Assembly: GCF_000419585.1 (NCBI RefSeq)
Contig: NZ_ATTH01000001.1
Span: forward strand, 1-64,000
DNA length: 64,000 bases
Source of the DNA: Salisaeta longa DSM 21114
Lineage (GTDB): Bacteria; Bacteroidota; Rhodothermia; Rhodothermales; Salinibacteraceae
Direction: 5' to 3'
Shown piece by piece: positions 4,956 to 57,321 of this stretch. The translations under genes and the position numbers were made by a program. The notes beneath the pieces were generated by a model, which did not search any database, was not told the DNA's origin, and worked only from the letters and a program-made list of their open reading frames with translations. Position 1 is the first letter of the stretch; each line of letters opens with the position of its first letter.

Positions 4956-6338
4956 CTACAGGTAGAAGAATTGCGCGACGAAGAAGTACAGCGTGAGCCC
5001 GATGATGTCGTTGAGAGTTGTTACAAACGGCCCCATGGCGCTGGCTGGGTCAACCCCGAATTTCTTCAAGACAAACGGAATGAGTGCGCCGTTCGTGGTA
5101 GCTACCAGGCTCACCAGAAGCATGGTGAGGCCGATGGTGAGCATCAGCCGCTGCACATTACCCATGTTGAAAAGAAACACGCCGCCGCACAAAATTGAGG
5201 CAATGACCAGCCCGTTGAGCAGCGCCACGGCCATTTCTTTGGTGATGCGCGGCAGGATGTCGCCCATCCACAGCCGGCCCGAGCTGAGGCCCTGCACAGC
5301 GATGGCCGCGCTTTGCACCGCCGCATTGCCGCCCATGGCCGTAACAACGGGGATAAACGTGGCGAGCACCACGGCTTGCTGCAGCTGCACCTCGAACGAG
5401 TGAATGACGGTGCCGGAAAGGGCCGACCCCAAAAGGCCAATGAGCAGCCACGGGAGGCGGCCCTGGCTCACGCGAAAGACCGAGTCGCGCGTGCCCTCGT
5501 CGCCGGTGAGGCCGCTCATGATCTGGATGTCCTCTTCCGCCTCATCGCGGATCACATCCACGACGTCGTCGATGGTTATGCGGCCCATCAGGCGGCCGCG
5601 CTCGTCGAGCACGGGAAGCGACACGAGGTCGTAGCGCTGCACCACGCGGGCCACTTCCTCCTGATCGATGTCGGTGGTTACCGAGATGAAGTTCGGCTCC
5701 ATGAGGCTGCTCACGAGCCGGTCGGCGGGGGCCAGCAGCAGATCTTTGAGCGACACCACGCCCAGCAGCACGCCATCGGCATCCACCACGAAGGCCGCGT
5801 ACATCTCGTCGACGTCGGGGGCCTGCGCGCGCACCGCTTCGGTCACCTCGGCAAGGGTCCAGGTAGGAGGCACGGCCACAAACTCGCGAGCCATGAGGCC
5901 GCCCGCCGTTTCGGGGCCGTAGTCCAGCAGCTCGGTGAGGTCGTCGGTGTCCTCCAGGGCGGGCAGCACGCGCAGCGCCACCTCGTCGGGCAGCTCGGCC
6001 AGCAGGTCGGCCGCATCGTCAGTGTCCAGCGCATCGAGCAGGTCGGTGAGCGCCGGCTCGTCAATCTCGTGCAGCAGAAAGCGCCGTAGGTCTTCTTCCA
6101 GCTCGGTGAGCGTGTCGCTGGCTTGGGTAGGCGGCAGCCAGGAAAACAGGCGCTGGGCCACGTCGCGCGGCACGTGCCGCAGCAGCAACGCCAGGTCGGC
6201 CGGATACAGGTCGGCGGCCAGGTTGCGCACCATGCCCTCCTGGTCGTTGCGTACCAGGGCGGCAATGTCATCGACGAGGGCTTCGTCCACTTCAAGAAGC
6301 CCGCCGGGACGGGTGGTGGTCGGGGCGCCGTTGGTCAT
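4956..6338 (-). CDS. mgtE: Magnesium transporter MgtE
   Basis: A 460-residue Mg2+ channel/transporter. It shows the usual order: an N-terminal acidic helical domain (residues 1-125, with LEDTDDLTELLDYGPETAGGL), two CBS domains (about 130-250), a connecting helix, then five transmembrane helices from about residue 285 to the end. The cytosolic domains close the pore when Mg2+ is high. It follows rsmA on the same strand with a 6-base gap, so the two are probably co-transcribed. The first M-T-N codons and the absence of a longer homologous lead support this start. Confidence 0.9.
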   Translation of the reverse strand: MTNGAPTTTRPGGLLEVDEALVDDIAALVRNDQEGMVRNLAADLYPADLALLLRHVPRDVAQRLFSWLPPTQASDTLTELEEDLRRFLLHEIDEPALTDLLDALDTDDAADLLAELPDEVALRVLPALEDTDDLTELLDYGPETAGGLMAREFVAVPPTWTLAEVTEAVRAQAPDVDEMYAAFVVDADGVLLGVVSLKDLLLAPADRLVSSLMEPNFISVTTDIDQEEVARVVQRYDLVSLPVLDERGRLMGRITIDDVVDVIRDEAEEDIQIMSGLTGDEGTRDSVFRVSQGRLPWLLIGLLGSALSGTVIHSFEVQLQQAVVLATFIPVVTAMGGNAAVQSAAIAVQGLSSGRLWMGDILPRITKEMAVALLNGLVIASILCGGVFLFNMGNVQRLMLTIGLTMLLVSLVATTNGALIPFVLKKFGVDPASAMGPFVTTLNDIIGLTLYFFVAQFFYL

Positions 6339-6344
6339 GAGCGA

Positions 6345-7139
6345 TTACGCCGTGTGAGAGTTCAGATAGCGCGCGAGGGTGGCAAACTCGTCGGGCGTGA
6401 GGGCTTCGGCGCGGCGGCGGCCCCAGTCGTTGGGCAGCGTTAGGCCGCGATCTTTGGTCCAGGCGTGCAGGCTGTTGCGCAGCATCTTGCGGCGCTGGTT
6501 AAACGCGGCGCGCACCACCGGCCGCACGTCGTCGAGCGTAAGATCGGGCGGACGGGCGTCGCTGTCAAATCGGATGTGCACCGCCGCACTGGTGATGTCG
6601 GGCTGCGGGTAGAAGACGTGCCGCGAGATGGTAAACGCCTCGGTCGGGGTTGCAAAAAGCTGCACGAGCACGCTCAAAATGCCGTAGGCCTTGGTGCGGG
6701 GCGCGGCCACGAGGCGGTCGGCCACGGCTTTTTGCATCGTGAGCACCGCTTCGGCCACGGCACCCTCGGCCTCCAGCAATGCAAACAGCAGCTCCGAGGT
6801 GAGGTAGTAGGGCGTGTTGCTAATGATGTGCAAGGGGGCCCCCGCTTCGGCGGCCAGGGCCTCCCAGGGCGTCTCGCGCAAATCCTCCTGGCGGATGGGC
6901 AGGTCGGGGAGCTTCTCGCGGAGGACGGCGACGGCGCGTTCGTCGATCTCGATGGCGGTAAACTGCGGATAGCGGGCGGCGAGGCCCTCGGTGAGCGCGC
7001 CCGTCCCGGCACCCACTTCTACCACAGGATCCTCGGGCGCAGCCTGCAGCGTGTCAATCAGCTTGCGGATGGTGTTGGGGTCGCGCATGAAGTTCTGCCC
7101 GAGGCTTTGCTTCGGGCGAAACGGAACACGGCGCGACAT
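6345..7139 (-). CDS. rsmA: 16S rRNA dimethyladenosine transferase
   Basis: RsmA/KsgA dimethylates two adjacent adenines in helix 45 of 16S rRNA during 30S maturation. The 264-residue protein begins MSRRVPFRPKQSLGQNFMRD, and the KQSLGQNF motif is diagnostic. SAM-binding VEVGAGTGALTEG follows, then the catalytic NTPYYLTS (NLPY-type motif IV). I preferred the ATG at 7139 because homology begins there; an ATG 27 bases further upstream is in frame. mgtE follows 6 bases after its stop. Confidence 0.92.
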   Translation of the reverse strand: MSRRVPFRPKQSLGQNFMRDPNTIRKLIDTLQAAPEDPVVEVGAGTGALTEGLAARYPQFTAIEIDERAVAVLREKLPDLPIRQEDLRETPWEALAAEAGAPLHIISNTPYYLTSELLFALLEAEGAVAEAVLTMQKAVADRLVAAPRTKAYGILSVLVQLFATPTEAFTISRHVFYPQPDITSAAVHIRFDSDARPPDLTLDDVRPVVRAAFNQRRKMLRNSLHAWTKDRGLTLPNDWGRRRAEALTPDEFATLARYLNSHTA

Positions 7140-53172: not shown

Positions 53173-55938
53173 CTACGCTGTCGCTTGGGCCTGTGCATCT
53201 TCCAGCGCGGCGATCAGCACAGAGAGCCGCGATGCGGGATCGGGGCCCAGGTGGATGCGCAGCACCGTGCGGTCTTGGTCGCGCAGCGCGTGGTAATCGC
53301 CCAGGGCCTGCGCGCGGATCAGCGCCTCGAAGGTGAAGTCCGTTTCAGGCACCGGCACATCGGCCGTGGGCGTGTCCACCAGTTGCAGCACGCGCACCGT
53401 GTTGGGGCCGCCCTTGTGCAGCTGCCCGGTCGAGTGCAGGAAGCGCGGGCCGTAGCCCAGGGTGGTGGCTGCCTGCAGGCGGTCGCGCAGGCGGGCTTGC
53501 AGGGTATGCAAGGCGTCATCGGTGGAAGCATTCGGGGCGAGATAGGCCTGAACCGACAGGTAGTCGCCCGGCTGCACGGTGCCCATCCACATGCGCAGCG
53601 CGTCGGTAAGGGCGGCCGTGTCGGTGCCATCGACGGTGGAGACGGCGTCGCCGGCGGGGTCGTCGCCCGTCATGGCGGCCTTGGCGTGCTTCTTGGCGGC
53701 CTCCACGTTCGGCTGGTTGAACGGCTGAATGCCCATCACGGCCCCGGCAGCGGCCACGGCGACCTCCCACACGTACATCTCGCGGGCGAGGTCGGTGGTG
53801 TCGCGCAGGGCGATGCGCAGGACCGGGTGGCCGGCTGCTTCGAGCGCATCGAGGGTCTCGTGCAGCGCCTCGTCCTCCGCGCCCTCCAGGTGAAAGTGGA
53901 TGAACACGCGATCGTCGTCGTAGGCGTCGGGCCCGGCGAGGGGTTCGCCGGCCACCGGCACGAGGCCCACATCATCCTTGCCGGTGCTCTCGGCAATCAG
54001 TTGTTCGTGCCAGGCCGGAAGCGCCGCAAGGCCCGCGCTGGGCACAAACGTCAGCTTATCGCGGCCGTCGTTCCAGAGCGCGCCCAGCACCGCGCCCAGT
54101 TTGAGGCCGTCGTGCGGAGCTGTCGCGGGCGCCGCGAAGCCCTCCGCCGTTGCCTTGAGGCCCGCCCGAAACAGCAGCCCGTGCAGGTCGGCGCCCATGA
54201 GCGCAGCCGGCACGAGGCCAAAGTGCGTGAGTGCCGAGTACCGCCCGCCCACGTCGGGCATGGCTGTAAACACGCGTCGGAAGTTGCGCTCTGCGCCCAA
54301 CGCCACGAGCTTTGAGCCCGGATCGGTGACCGCGGCGAAGTGGTCGCCCGGCGTGTCGGTAAGGGCCTGTACGCGATCCCAGAAGAAGCGGAAGAACGAG
54401 AGCGTTTCAACGGTGGTGCCGCTCTTCGACGCAATCAGAAACAGCGAGCGGTTGAGGTCGAGCGTATCGGCCAGGGCCTCCAGGTGCTCGGGGTGCGTGC
54501 TGTCGAGCACGGTGAGCGACGGATAGCCCTCCGCTGCGCCAAACACATCGCTGTACACCTCCGGGGCGAGGCTAGAGCCGCCCATGCCGCACACCACCAC
54601 GTGGTCAATAGTATCGCGGACGGCATCGGCGAAGGCCGTCAGGTCGGCCAGGTGGCGATTCATGCGGGCGGGCAGCGTGAGCCAGCCCATGCGGTTGGCC
54701 AGCTCGGGGGTGTCCACATCGGCCCACAGCGTGGGATCGTGCCGCCAGAAGCGCGCGCCGAAGTCCGCGGCATCCCAGGCCGCCAGTTGCTCCTCAACCG
54801 CCGATTCGGTGTCTGCGCTGAGGGCGTAGCGTGCCGGTCCGGTACCGCCTGCAAGCTGCGCGCGCTTCTCCTCAATGGCGTCGAGGAGGTTGTCGAAGGG
54901 GCGCACAAATTTGTCGATGCCCTCTTCCTGTAGCGCCTCGGTGACGTCGTCGAGGTCGATGCCGGCGTCGGCCAGCCCAGACAGGACCGCGCGGGCGTCG
55001 TCGAGGGTTTCGGTGACGGTCGCCCCGCGCACGGTGCCGTGGTCGCGGAAGGCATCCAGCGTATCCGGCGGAATGGTGTTGACCGTTTCGGGGCCGATGA
55101 GCTCCTCTACGTACTGCACATCGGAGCGCTCGGGGTGCTTGGTGCTGGTGGAGGCCCACAGCGGGCGCTGCACGAGCGCGCCTTCCGCGCGGAGGGCGGC
55201 AAAGCGATCGCCATGAAAGATTTCTTGGAAGCGCTGATACGCCATCTTGGCGTTGGCAATGGCCACGTCACTTCCGTTGAAGTCGACATCGACATCCTTT
55301 TCGTCGAGCAGATCGTCGACCATCACCGCCACGCGGCTCACAAAGAACGAAGCCACCGAGTGGATGCCCGTGGGGTCGTTGGCGCGCTCCAGCCCGCGGA
55401 TGTAGGCCTCGGCGGTCGCTTCGTAGTGGTCGAGCGAAAACATCAGGGTGATGTTCACATTGATGCCCTCGCTGATGAGCTGCTCGATAGCCGGGATGCC
55501 GGCGTCGGTGGCGGGCACCTTAATCATCAGGTTGGGGCGGTTGACGGCGTGCCACAGGCGGCGGGCCTCGGTGATGGTGCCCTCGGTATCGCGGGCCAGG
55601 TGGGGCGACACCTCCAGGCTCACGAGGCCGTCGGTGCCGGTCTCCTCAAACACGGGCCGCATGATGTCGGCGGCGCGCTGGATGTCGGCAATGGCGATTT
55701 GTTCGTAGAGCGCCTCGGCGGGCGCGTCGGGCTGCGCCTCCACCAGGGCGTGCAGGTCGGCGTCGTACTCGCCGGTGCCGCCAATGGCTTTCTGAAAGAT
55801 GGACGGGTTGGAGGTCATGCCGCGCAGGTTGTCCTCCGCAATGAGGCGATGCAAGTCGCCGCTTTGCATGAGGCTGCGGCGGATGTAGTCGAGCCAAATC
55901 GACTGATCTTCGGCGCGGATGGCATCGGTCGGGGTCAT
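53173..55938 (-). CDS. tal-pgi: Bifunctional transaldolase / glucose-6-phosphate isomerase
   Basis: 921 residues. Residues 1-about 365 are a transaldolase with GMTSNPSIFQKAIGG and Schiff-base Lys140 in LMIKVPATDAGIPAIEQL. Residues about 375-921 are a phosphoglucose isomerase with VVVCGMGGSSLAPEV and FLIASKSGTTVETLSFF. The fusion links the non-oxidative pentose-phosphate pathway to glucose-6-phosphate, the substrate of Zwf in the same cluster. Such fusions are known in some bacteria and I recall them in Salinibacter. It is the first gene of the cluster. Confidence 0.93.
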   Translation of the reverse strand: MTPTDAIRAEDQSIWLDYIRRSLMQSGDLHRLIAEDNLRGMTSNPSIFQKAIGGTGEYDADLHALVEAQPDAPAEALYEQIAIADIQRAADIMRPVFEETGTDGLVSLEVSPHLARDTEGTITEARRLWHAVNRPNLMIKVPATDAGIPAIEQLISEGINVNITLMFSLDHYEATAEAYIRGLERANDPTGIHSVASFFVSRVAVMVDDLLDEKDVDVDFNGSDVAIANAKMAYQRFQEIFHGDRFAALRAEGALVQRPLWASTSTKHPERSDVQYVEELIGPETVNTIPPDTLDAFRDHGTVRGATVTETLDDARAVLSGLADAGIDLDDVTEALQEEGIDKFVRPFDNLLDAIEEKRAQLAGGTGPARYALSADTESAVEEQLAAWDAADFGARFWRHDPTLWADVDTPELANRMGWLTLPARMNRHLADLTAFADAVRDTIDHVVVCGMGGSSLAPEVYSDVFGAAEGYPSLTVLDSTHPEHLEALADTLDLNRSLFLIASKSGTTVETLSFFRFFWDRVQALTDTPGDHFAAVTDPGSKLVALGAERNFRRVFTAMPDVGGRYSALTHFGLVPAALMGADLHGLLFRAGLKATAEGFAAPATAPHDGLKLGAVLGALWNDGRDKLTFVPSAGLAALPAWHEQLIAESTGKDDVGLVPVAGEPLAGPDAYDDDRVFIHFHLEGAEDEALHETLDALEAAGHPVLRIALRDTTDLAREMYVWEVAVAAAGAVMGIQPFNQPNVEAAKKHAKAAMTGDDPAGDAVSTVDGTDTAALTDALRMWMGTVQPGDYLSVQAYLAPNASTDDALHTLQARLRDRLQAATTLGYGPRFLHSTGQLHKGGPNTVRVLQLVDTPTADVPVPETDFTFEALIRAQALGDYHALRDQDRTVLRIHLGPDPASRLSVLIAALEDAQAQATA

Positions 55939-56240
55939 GGCGATAGGCGCATCGTGTCAGAAAGTGGCGTGGGGGCGAGGCAGGCGCACCGCCTCGCACG
56001 GAAGTAATATCCCACGAGCCGCGCGACAGGTCCGCCTGCAATGTTACGTTATCCGACCGGGCCGGGCGTTACACGACGGGGCCGATGAAAAGGGTGAGTT
56101 GTTTCCGTGCGCTGCGCGTGCAGCTGGGCAGACCACCCCGAATAGCCATCTGAACCATCGACGCTCTATTTTTCATCAACCGCTGTTGTCATTGCGAGCG
56201 AACGCAGTGAGCGTGGGGGCCTTTAGGTCATCCTGAAAGC

Positions 56241-56366
56241 GCAATCTCCCCAGCCGGGCAATCTCCCCAGCCGGGCAATCTCCGCAGTCGGGCAATCTCC
56301 GCAGTCGGGCAATCTCCGCAGTCGGGCAATCTCCCCAGCCGGGCAATCTCCGCAGTCGGGCAGTCC
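56241..56366. repeat. 17-bp tandem repeat, 7 copies plus a partial eighth
   Basis: Units start at 56241, 56258, 56275, 56292, 56309, 56326 and 56343; a degenerate eighth starts at 56360. Two versions occur: A = GCAATCTCCCCAGCCGG and B = GCAATCTCCGCAGTCGG, in the order A-A-B-B-B-A-B. The period is not a multiple of three, so this is not a coding repeat. Confidence 0.95.
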
Positions 56367-56440: not shown

Positions 56441-56720
56441 GCAATCGTGTGGCGTTGAAATCAGTGCTATGCCATTGAATTCAACGCGCGTTGCAGACCT
56501 AAAATGTCCGCTCAAGGCGGGGGGTCTGCGGCACACGCGCAAGATGTTCTTTTACATAGGGTTGCGCAAAATGCCTTCACGATGGCTTCATCAAAAGCCA
56601 TGAAGCAAGCGCATGCTAGCACAGGGTCTGCGGAAATGACGCCTCCGAGCTACGACCAACGGCCTGCAGCGGCCGCAACCGCTGCCTTTCGCACCGGTAT
56701 TCACCTCTCTTTCAGGTACC

Positions 56721-57143
56721 GTCGGAAGTCTTGCCTCCATTCCAAGAGGATTGAAACCAGATGCGTGACGTGTTGAGAACGTGGCTGACCACGCGTCGGA
56801 AGTCTTGCCTCCATTCCAAGAGGATTGAAACACCCACTGTTCCTCGACCTGCCCCGCCTCATCGGCGTTTTCGTCGGAAGTCTTGCCTCCATTCCAAGAG
56901 GATTGAAACCCCAAAAAGACGTGCCCTATCTCGTGCATGAGTGTGAGCGTCGGAAGTCTTGCCTCCATTCCAAGAGGATTGAAACCACGCGCGGCGTACG
57001 TGCTTCTCCGGCACGATGCCCTCGGCAGGTCGGAAGTCTTGCCTCCATTCCAAGAGGATTGAAACTAAAATGACCACTCCATATCTTTTTTATAGGCTTC
57101 TTTTACGTCGGAAGTCTTGCCTCCATTCCAAGAGGATTGATGT
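56721..57143 (+). CRISPR. CRISPR array, 6 repeats of 37 bp and 5 spacers
   Basis: Repeats start at 56721, 56795, 56873, 56949, 57029 and 57107. Each begins GTCGGAAGTCTTGCCTCC and ends GAGGATTGAAAC; the first five are identical over 37 bp. The sixth loses its last three bases (...GATTGATGT), marking the leader-distal end, so the array reads left to right. Spacers are 37, 41, 39, 43 and 41 bp. The ATTGAAAC end is the 5' handle found in many type I and III crRNAs. No cas genes are in the window. Confidence 0.97.
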
Positions 57144-57321
57144 CTTCCGGCGATGAGGCCTGACCGACGTTTGCGCAGTACCTGTTGTAAATACACAAAC
57201 GCCTGTCCGCTGCTGCGGGCGGGCGTTTGGTGTTTGGGGGCGATGCGTGCACACCTGCCGTGCGGGCACTCTCCGCAATCGGCCGTTGCCTTCGTACCCG
57301 GAGATCGCACCATACATAGAA

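Follow-up and report, generated by a model that had tools for sequence, protein, structure and literature searches.

Type III CRISPR complexes bind RNA, and the crRNA that guides them must be antisense to the target transcript. Of the type III spacers that a large survey could map, 65% corresponded to the coding strand, a ratio of about 2:1 (PMC8482600). The proteins of interest as targets here are zinc metallopeptidases with an HExxH active-site helix. In canonical metzincins this motif is extended to HExxHxxGxxH, with Gly at position 8. The ImmA/IrrE family (Pfam PF06114, Peptidase_M78) has an FTLxHE[LI][GA]H-type helix instead, and ImmA-type proteases control integrative elements such as ICEBs1 and TnSmu1 (PMC10233336). 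Our analysis of a 64,000-nucleotide stretch of the Salisaeta longa DSM 21114 genome (the window; positions 1 to 64,000 of contig NZ_ATTH01000001.1) suggests that a spacer in a small CRISPR array derives from such a gene. We give a probability of roughly 60% to the reading that spacer 3 is an ordinary type III (III-D-like) spacer taken from a zinc-metallopeptidase gene, probably of the ImmA/IrrE (M78) family, on a phage or mobile element absent from sequence collections.

The array (Table 1) is built of 37-nt repeats with the unit GTCGGAAGTCTTGCCTCCATTCCAAGAGGATTGAAAC, which start at positions 56721, 56795, 56873, 56949, 57029 and 57107; the final repeat ends ...GATTGATGT. The spacers are, in order, 37, 41, 39, 43 and 41 nt long. 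The locus therefore has the regular, identical repeats and unique spacers of similar length (37-43 nt) of a CRISPR array, as well as a leader beside the first repeat that is kept between arrays and a degenerate terminal repeat. The hairpin in the trailer is probably the array terminator.

Table 1. Features of the CRISPR locus, in window coordinates
Feature	Position	Strand	Description
CRISPR leader	56461..56720	+	~260 bp or more; kept upstream of other arrays with the same repeat (MAFFT of leaders A-G; blastn 82-87% to array regions)
CRISPR array	56721..57143	+	Six repeats, five spacers; 3' end of last repeat degenerate (distal end)
Spacer 3	56910..56948	- (reading)	39 nt, third of five; minus strand LTLMHEIGHVFL(G), HExxH zinc-metallopeptidase active-site helix; crRNA = + strand
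Trailer with strong GC-rich hairpin	57144..57240	+	Near-identical trailer at array E; hairpin -36.7 kcal/mol, z -8.1

A 17-bp tandem repeat of 7.2 copies (window 56241-56362) and a dispersed intergenic element (window 56108-56252) are both found near other arrays as well. Further upstream, a 921-aa transaldolase-phosphoglucose isomerase fusion is encoded at window 53173-55938, near genes for glucose-6-phosphate dehydrogenase and a 6-phosphogluconate dehydrogenase-like protein.

The window array belongs to a type III system. Its repeat occurs in 43 copies in the 3.4-Mb genome, distributed over small dispersed arrays at ~0.057, 0.919, 0.938, 0.941, 1.919, 3.178 and 3.182 Mb and a lone repeat at 0.952 Mb. 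The same repeat flanks the cas genes of the 918-952 kb region, in arrays at 918.8-919.3, 937.7-937.8 and 940.6-941.0 kb. This region encodes Cas10 (923,996-925,633) and, with it at 924-935 kb, RAMP proteins, a Csx10-like protein and two Csx1 (CARF-HEPN) proteins; Cas1, Cas2 and Cas6 are also found between or beside the 0.92-0.95 Mb arrays. By its gene content the system appears most like type III-D, with which it shares Cas10, several Cas7-like RAMPs, the Csx10-like protein, Csx1 effectors, ATTGAAAC at the 3' end of the repeat and spacers of 37-47 nt. However, the Csx10 match (TIGR02674) has an E value of 4e-42 but scores 144.8 bits against a cut-off of 177.3, and most Csx7 matches also lie below the curated cut-offs, one RAMP being above that of TIGR02581. 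It differs, too, in that the arrays are scattered over the genome, with the window array far from the cas genes.

At each array, ~260 bp ahead of the first repeat are conserved; in most the last repeat is degenerate, and in several the conserved hairpin trailer follows. The seven dispersed arrays have repeat and leader in common, and several the trailer, and they lie in intergenic DNA full of repeats; as a set they resemble copies of a cassette made up of leader, array and terminator. One of them (genome 3,177,671-3,178,254; L013 9672-10255) contains a 503-bp tandem duplication that took in the leader and two spacers and ended 17 nt into a further spacer, which holds the breakpoint. At genome 952,223-954,451 (L011 2223-4451), leader-like sequence is followed by ~1.7 kb of different DNA, in which there is a 411-aa open reading frame without a Pfam match, and then by a single repeat with trailer, which looks like an interrupted or decayed array.

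The leader lies at the low-coordinate end of the window array and the degenerate repeat at the opposite end, which sets transcription on the + strand and makes the spacer 3 crRNA antisense to the HEIGH frame described below. This orientation fits an RNA-targeting type III system. It is weak evidence, because it would be right half the time by chance and because a codon model built from a Salisaeta phage gives the opposite strand a mild preference here. Of the type III spacers read from the genome, 19 of 32 look antisense to coding sequence (p = 0.38); among strong calls the figure is 11 of 14 (p = 0.06, with a threshold set post hoc), and spacer 3 itself is assigned the opposite orientation. 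The antisense tendency of the whole set is suggestive only.

The reverse complement of spacer 3 is GCTCACACTCATGCACGAGATAGGGCACGTCTTTTTGGG. Its first frame, from the first minus-strand base, reads AHTHARDRARLFG; the second reads LTLMHEIGHVFL without a stop and ends in a partial codon GG., so that the 13th residue is Gly whatever base follows. The initial annotation had placed spacer 3 at these coordinates with a HEIGH reading in an open minus-strand frame, and both the coordinates and the frame are exact. Four of the six frames are open (two on each strand), so openness alone carries no information. This leaves room for the view that HEIGH is a coincidence, and that the protospacer is a plus-strand gene (for example one encoding ...QKDVPYLVHECE...) or non-coding DNA. 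The codon model slightly favors the QKDVPYLVHECE frame over the HEIGH frame (2.37 versus 0.74), and for about a third of type III spacers the published survey found no coding-strand match (PMC8482600).

The motif itself, however, is rarely produced by chance. Among random spacers of the same composition, HE..H appears in any of six frames in ~0.16%, and HE[hydrophobic][GAS]H in 0.016%; spacer 3 is the only one of the 32 type III spacers read from the genome to contain the latter. To take in the flanking residues we used a 13-position M78 profile of 27 distinct HE..H sites, from Pfam-found M78 loci in the organism's family and order, which left out every sequence found by pattern. The spacer 3 peptide scores 21.6 bits on this profile. 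None of 150,000 simulated spacers reaches that score (maximum 11.9), and when ~200 kb of host and phage DNA was scanned in six frames, the top score was 14.3 bits. The exact tail probability under independent bases is ~5e-8 per random spacer, or ~2e-6 over the 32. The claim that the minus strand of spacer 3 encodes a zinc-metallopeptidase active site is thus well supported statistically. A metallopeptidase gene is the better explanation of the motif, even allowing generously for other recognizable motifs, and we regard a coincidental reading as quite improbable.

Which family of metallopeptidases the gene would belong to is a separate question. The helix in spacer 3 carries M78 flanking residues, and its 21.6 bits border on the lower end of the leave-one-out scores of the M78 members themselves, which mostly lie at 21.7-43.4 bits. 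Other cellular families fit clearly worse: M43 gives 13.3-13.7 bits and M48 8.9-12.8 bits (the ranges covering two profile versions), and DUF2201 gives 11.9 bits on a small profile of three sequences, the HE[VI]LH flanks typical of DUF2201_N (PF13203) being absent from spacer 3. In addition, two natural proteins with [LF]TLMHEIGHV are M78 by Pfam. The closest viral TLMHEIGHV protein (L027, FTLMHEIGHVYLG) is two residues apart from it, and an HTH-M78 protein of Erythrobacter (L040, FTLMHEIGHVLLH), on the only genome contig found to encode [LF]TLMHEIGHV, is three residues apart.

An origin from a zinc metallopeptidase of another family, such as a metzincin-like protein, a polyvalent protein of phages or a metalloprotease of the phrog_87 type, is rather unlikely. 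Two viral proteins, the metzincin-like L019 (LTIAHEIGHVFLL; a weak archaemetzincin match, with 29 of 39 bases identical to spacer 3) and the polyvalent protein L021 (LVLAHEIGHVFLN), each have 10 of 13 residues in common with the spacer 3 peptide; on the M78 profile they reach 23.4 and 22.9 bits, respectively. The profile can therefore tell M78 apart from cellular M43 and M48, but it does not discriminate against these viral peptidases, and passing it is necessary, not sufficient, for ImmA/IrrE membership. Moreover, position -4 is Phe in nearly all collected M78 sequences and Leu in spacer 3, and the Met at -1 is not M78 consensus. When padded with X, the 13-residue peptide has no Pfam hit, whereas the L040 peptide padded alike matches Pfam M78 (E 8e-4). 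A canonical metzincin is in turn disfavored by position 8, which is Leu (HEIGHVFLG) rather than Gly; positions 10-11 fall outside the spacer. The comparison with ImmA/IrrE is confined to 13 residues, the HTH partner, flanking gene and third zinc ligand lying beyond what 39 nt can display. M78 is thus the best-fitting cellular family among those compared and our leading guess, not proven. The ImmA/IrrE label of the initial annotation holds as the best single family, but not as a unique one.

A protospacer for spacer 3 was sought in several collections. No match was found in IMG/VR viral contigs (queried with the whole spacer and with two 20-nt segments of it), in INPHARED phages (blastn of the spacers), in PLSDB plasmids (blastn of all five spacers of the array) or in 113 genomes of the same order (up to three mismatches). 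Likewise, no protospacer emerged when the padded peptide was run by tblastn or when relatives were searched for patterns at the DNA and protein level, including the back-translated peptide. TLMHEIGHVF had no hits in viral contigs, MHEIGHVFLG had none in 84,980 species genomes, and Salisaeta phage SSIP-1 has no match to the spacers of the window array. The best blastn match, of 22 nt to Rhizobium phage RHph_N38 (E = 6), lies in frame in a DUF2201 metallopeptidase gene; it is not significant, its motif differs (TVFMHELWHVARL), and we rejected it as chance plus motif codons. A nucleotide match inside an ImmA/IrrE-like gene, to which the initial annotation had looked for support, was thus not obtained in these collections, and the target gene stays a hypothesis because viral contigs, phages, plasmids, the genome itself and the 113 relatives yielded no protospacer. 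A mobile-element origin is the default expectation for any spacer. The converse, that spacer 3 targets a gene of the host chromosome, draws on the one M78 protein of the genome (1,406,322-1,406,639). However, the analysis detected no HE..H motif there, and at up to three mismatches spacer 3 occurs nowhere else in the genome. Self-targeting is largely refuted and very improbable, although a copy could hide in a missing piece of the assembly.

If spacer 3 does derive from a metallopeptidase gene, established knowledge of type III systems suggests how it may act. Cas6 would process the + strand transcript of the array into crRNAs, and that of spacer 3 would be complementary to the predicted metallopeptidase mRNA. 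The Cas10-RAMP complex could then bind and cut this mRNA and could also synthesize cyclic oligoadenylates and thereby activate the two Csx1 (CARF-HEPN) ribonucleases. A more specific version, which we consider speculative and unlikely, is that type III immunity records here an early-expressed, ImmA-like lysogeny-switch protease of a halophilic temperate phage or integrative element, in which case the crRNA would be directed at the mRNA governing induction of that element. Should the metallopeptidase reading be true, 13 residues and a profile test will have sufficed to name a probable target gene for a spacer that matches nothing in the databases, and the reading predicts that Salisaeta-like halophiles are infected by an unsampled phage or integrative element with an M78 gene. 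Otherwise, spacer 3 is a routine spacer. Overall we see it as an ordinary one whose reading frame is unusually legible.

The genome also contains a separate type I-E array at ~1.578 Mb, with 31 repeats and genes for Cas1, Cas6e and Cas7e. A small sample of the open literature contained no mention of a match between a spacer of this array and Salisaeta icosahedral phage 1. One of its spacers (genome 1,578,202-1,578,234; L041 8203-8235) matches this phage in 32 of 33 bases, at NC_017983 6539-6571, inside a gene (5886-6572) annotated as ORF 10. Together with the genus being a singleton in its family, this match points to Salisaeta as the organism; the near identity points to past exposure to Salisaeta icosahedral phage 1 or a close relative.
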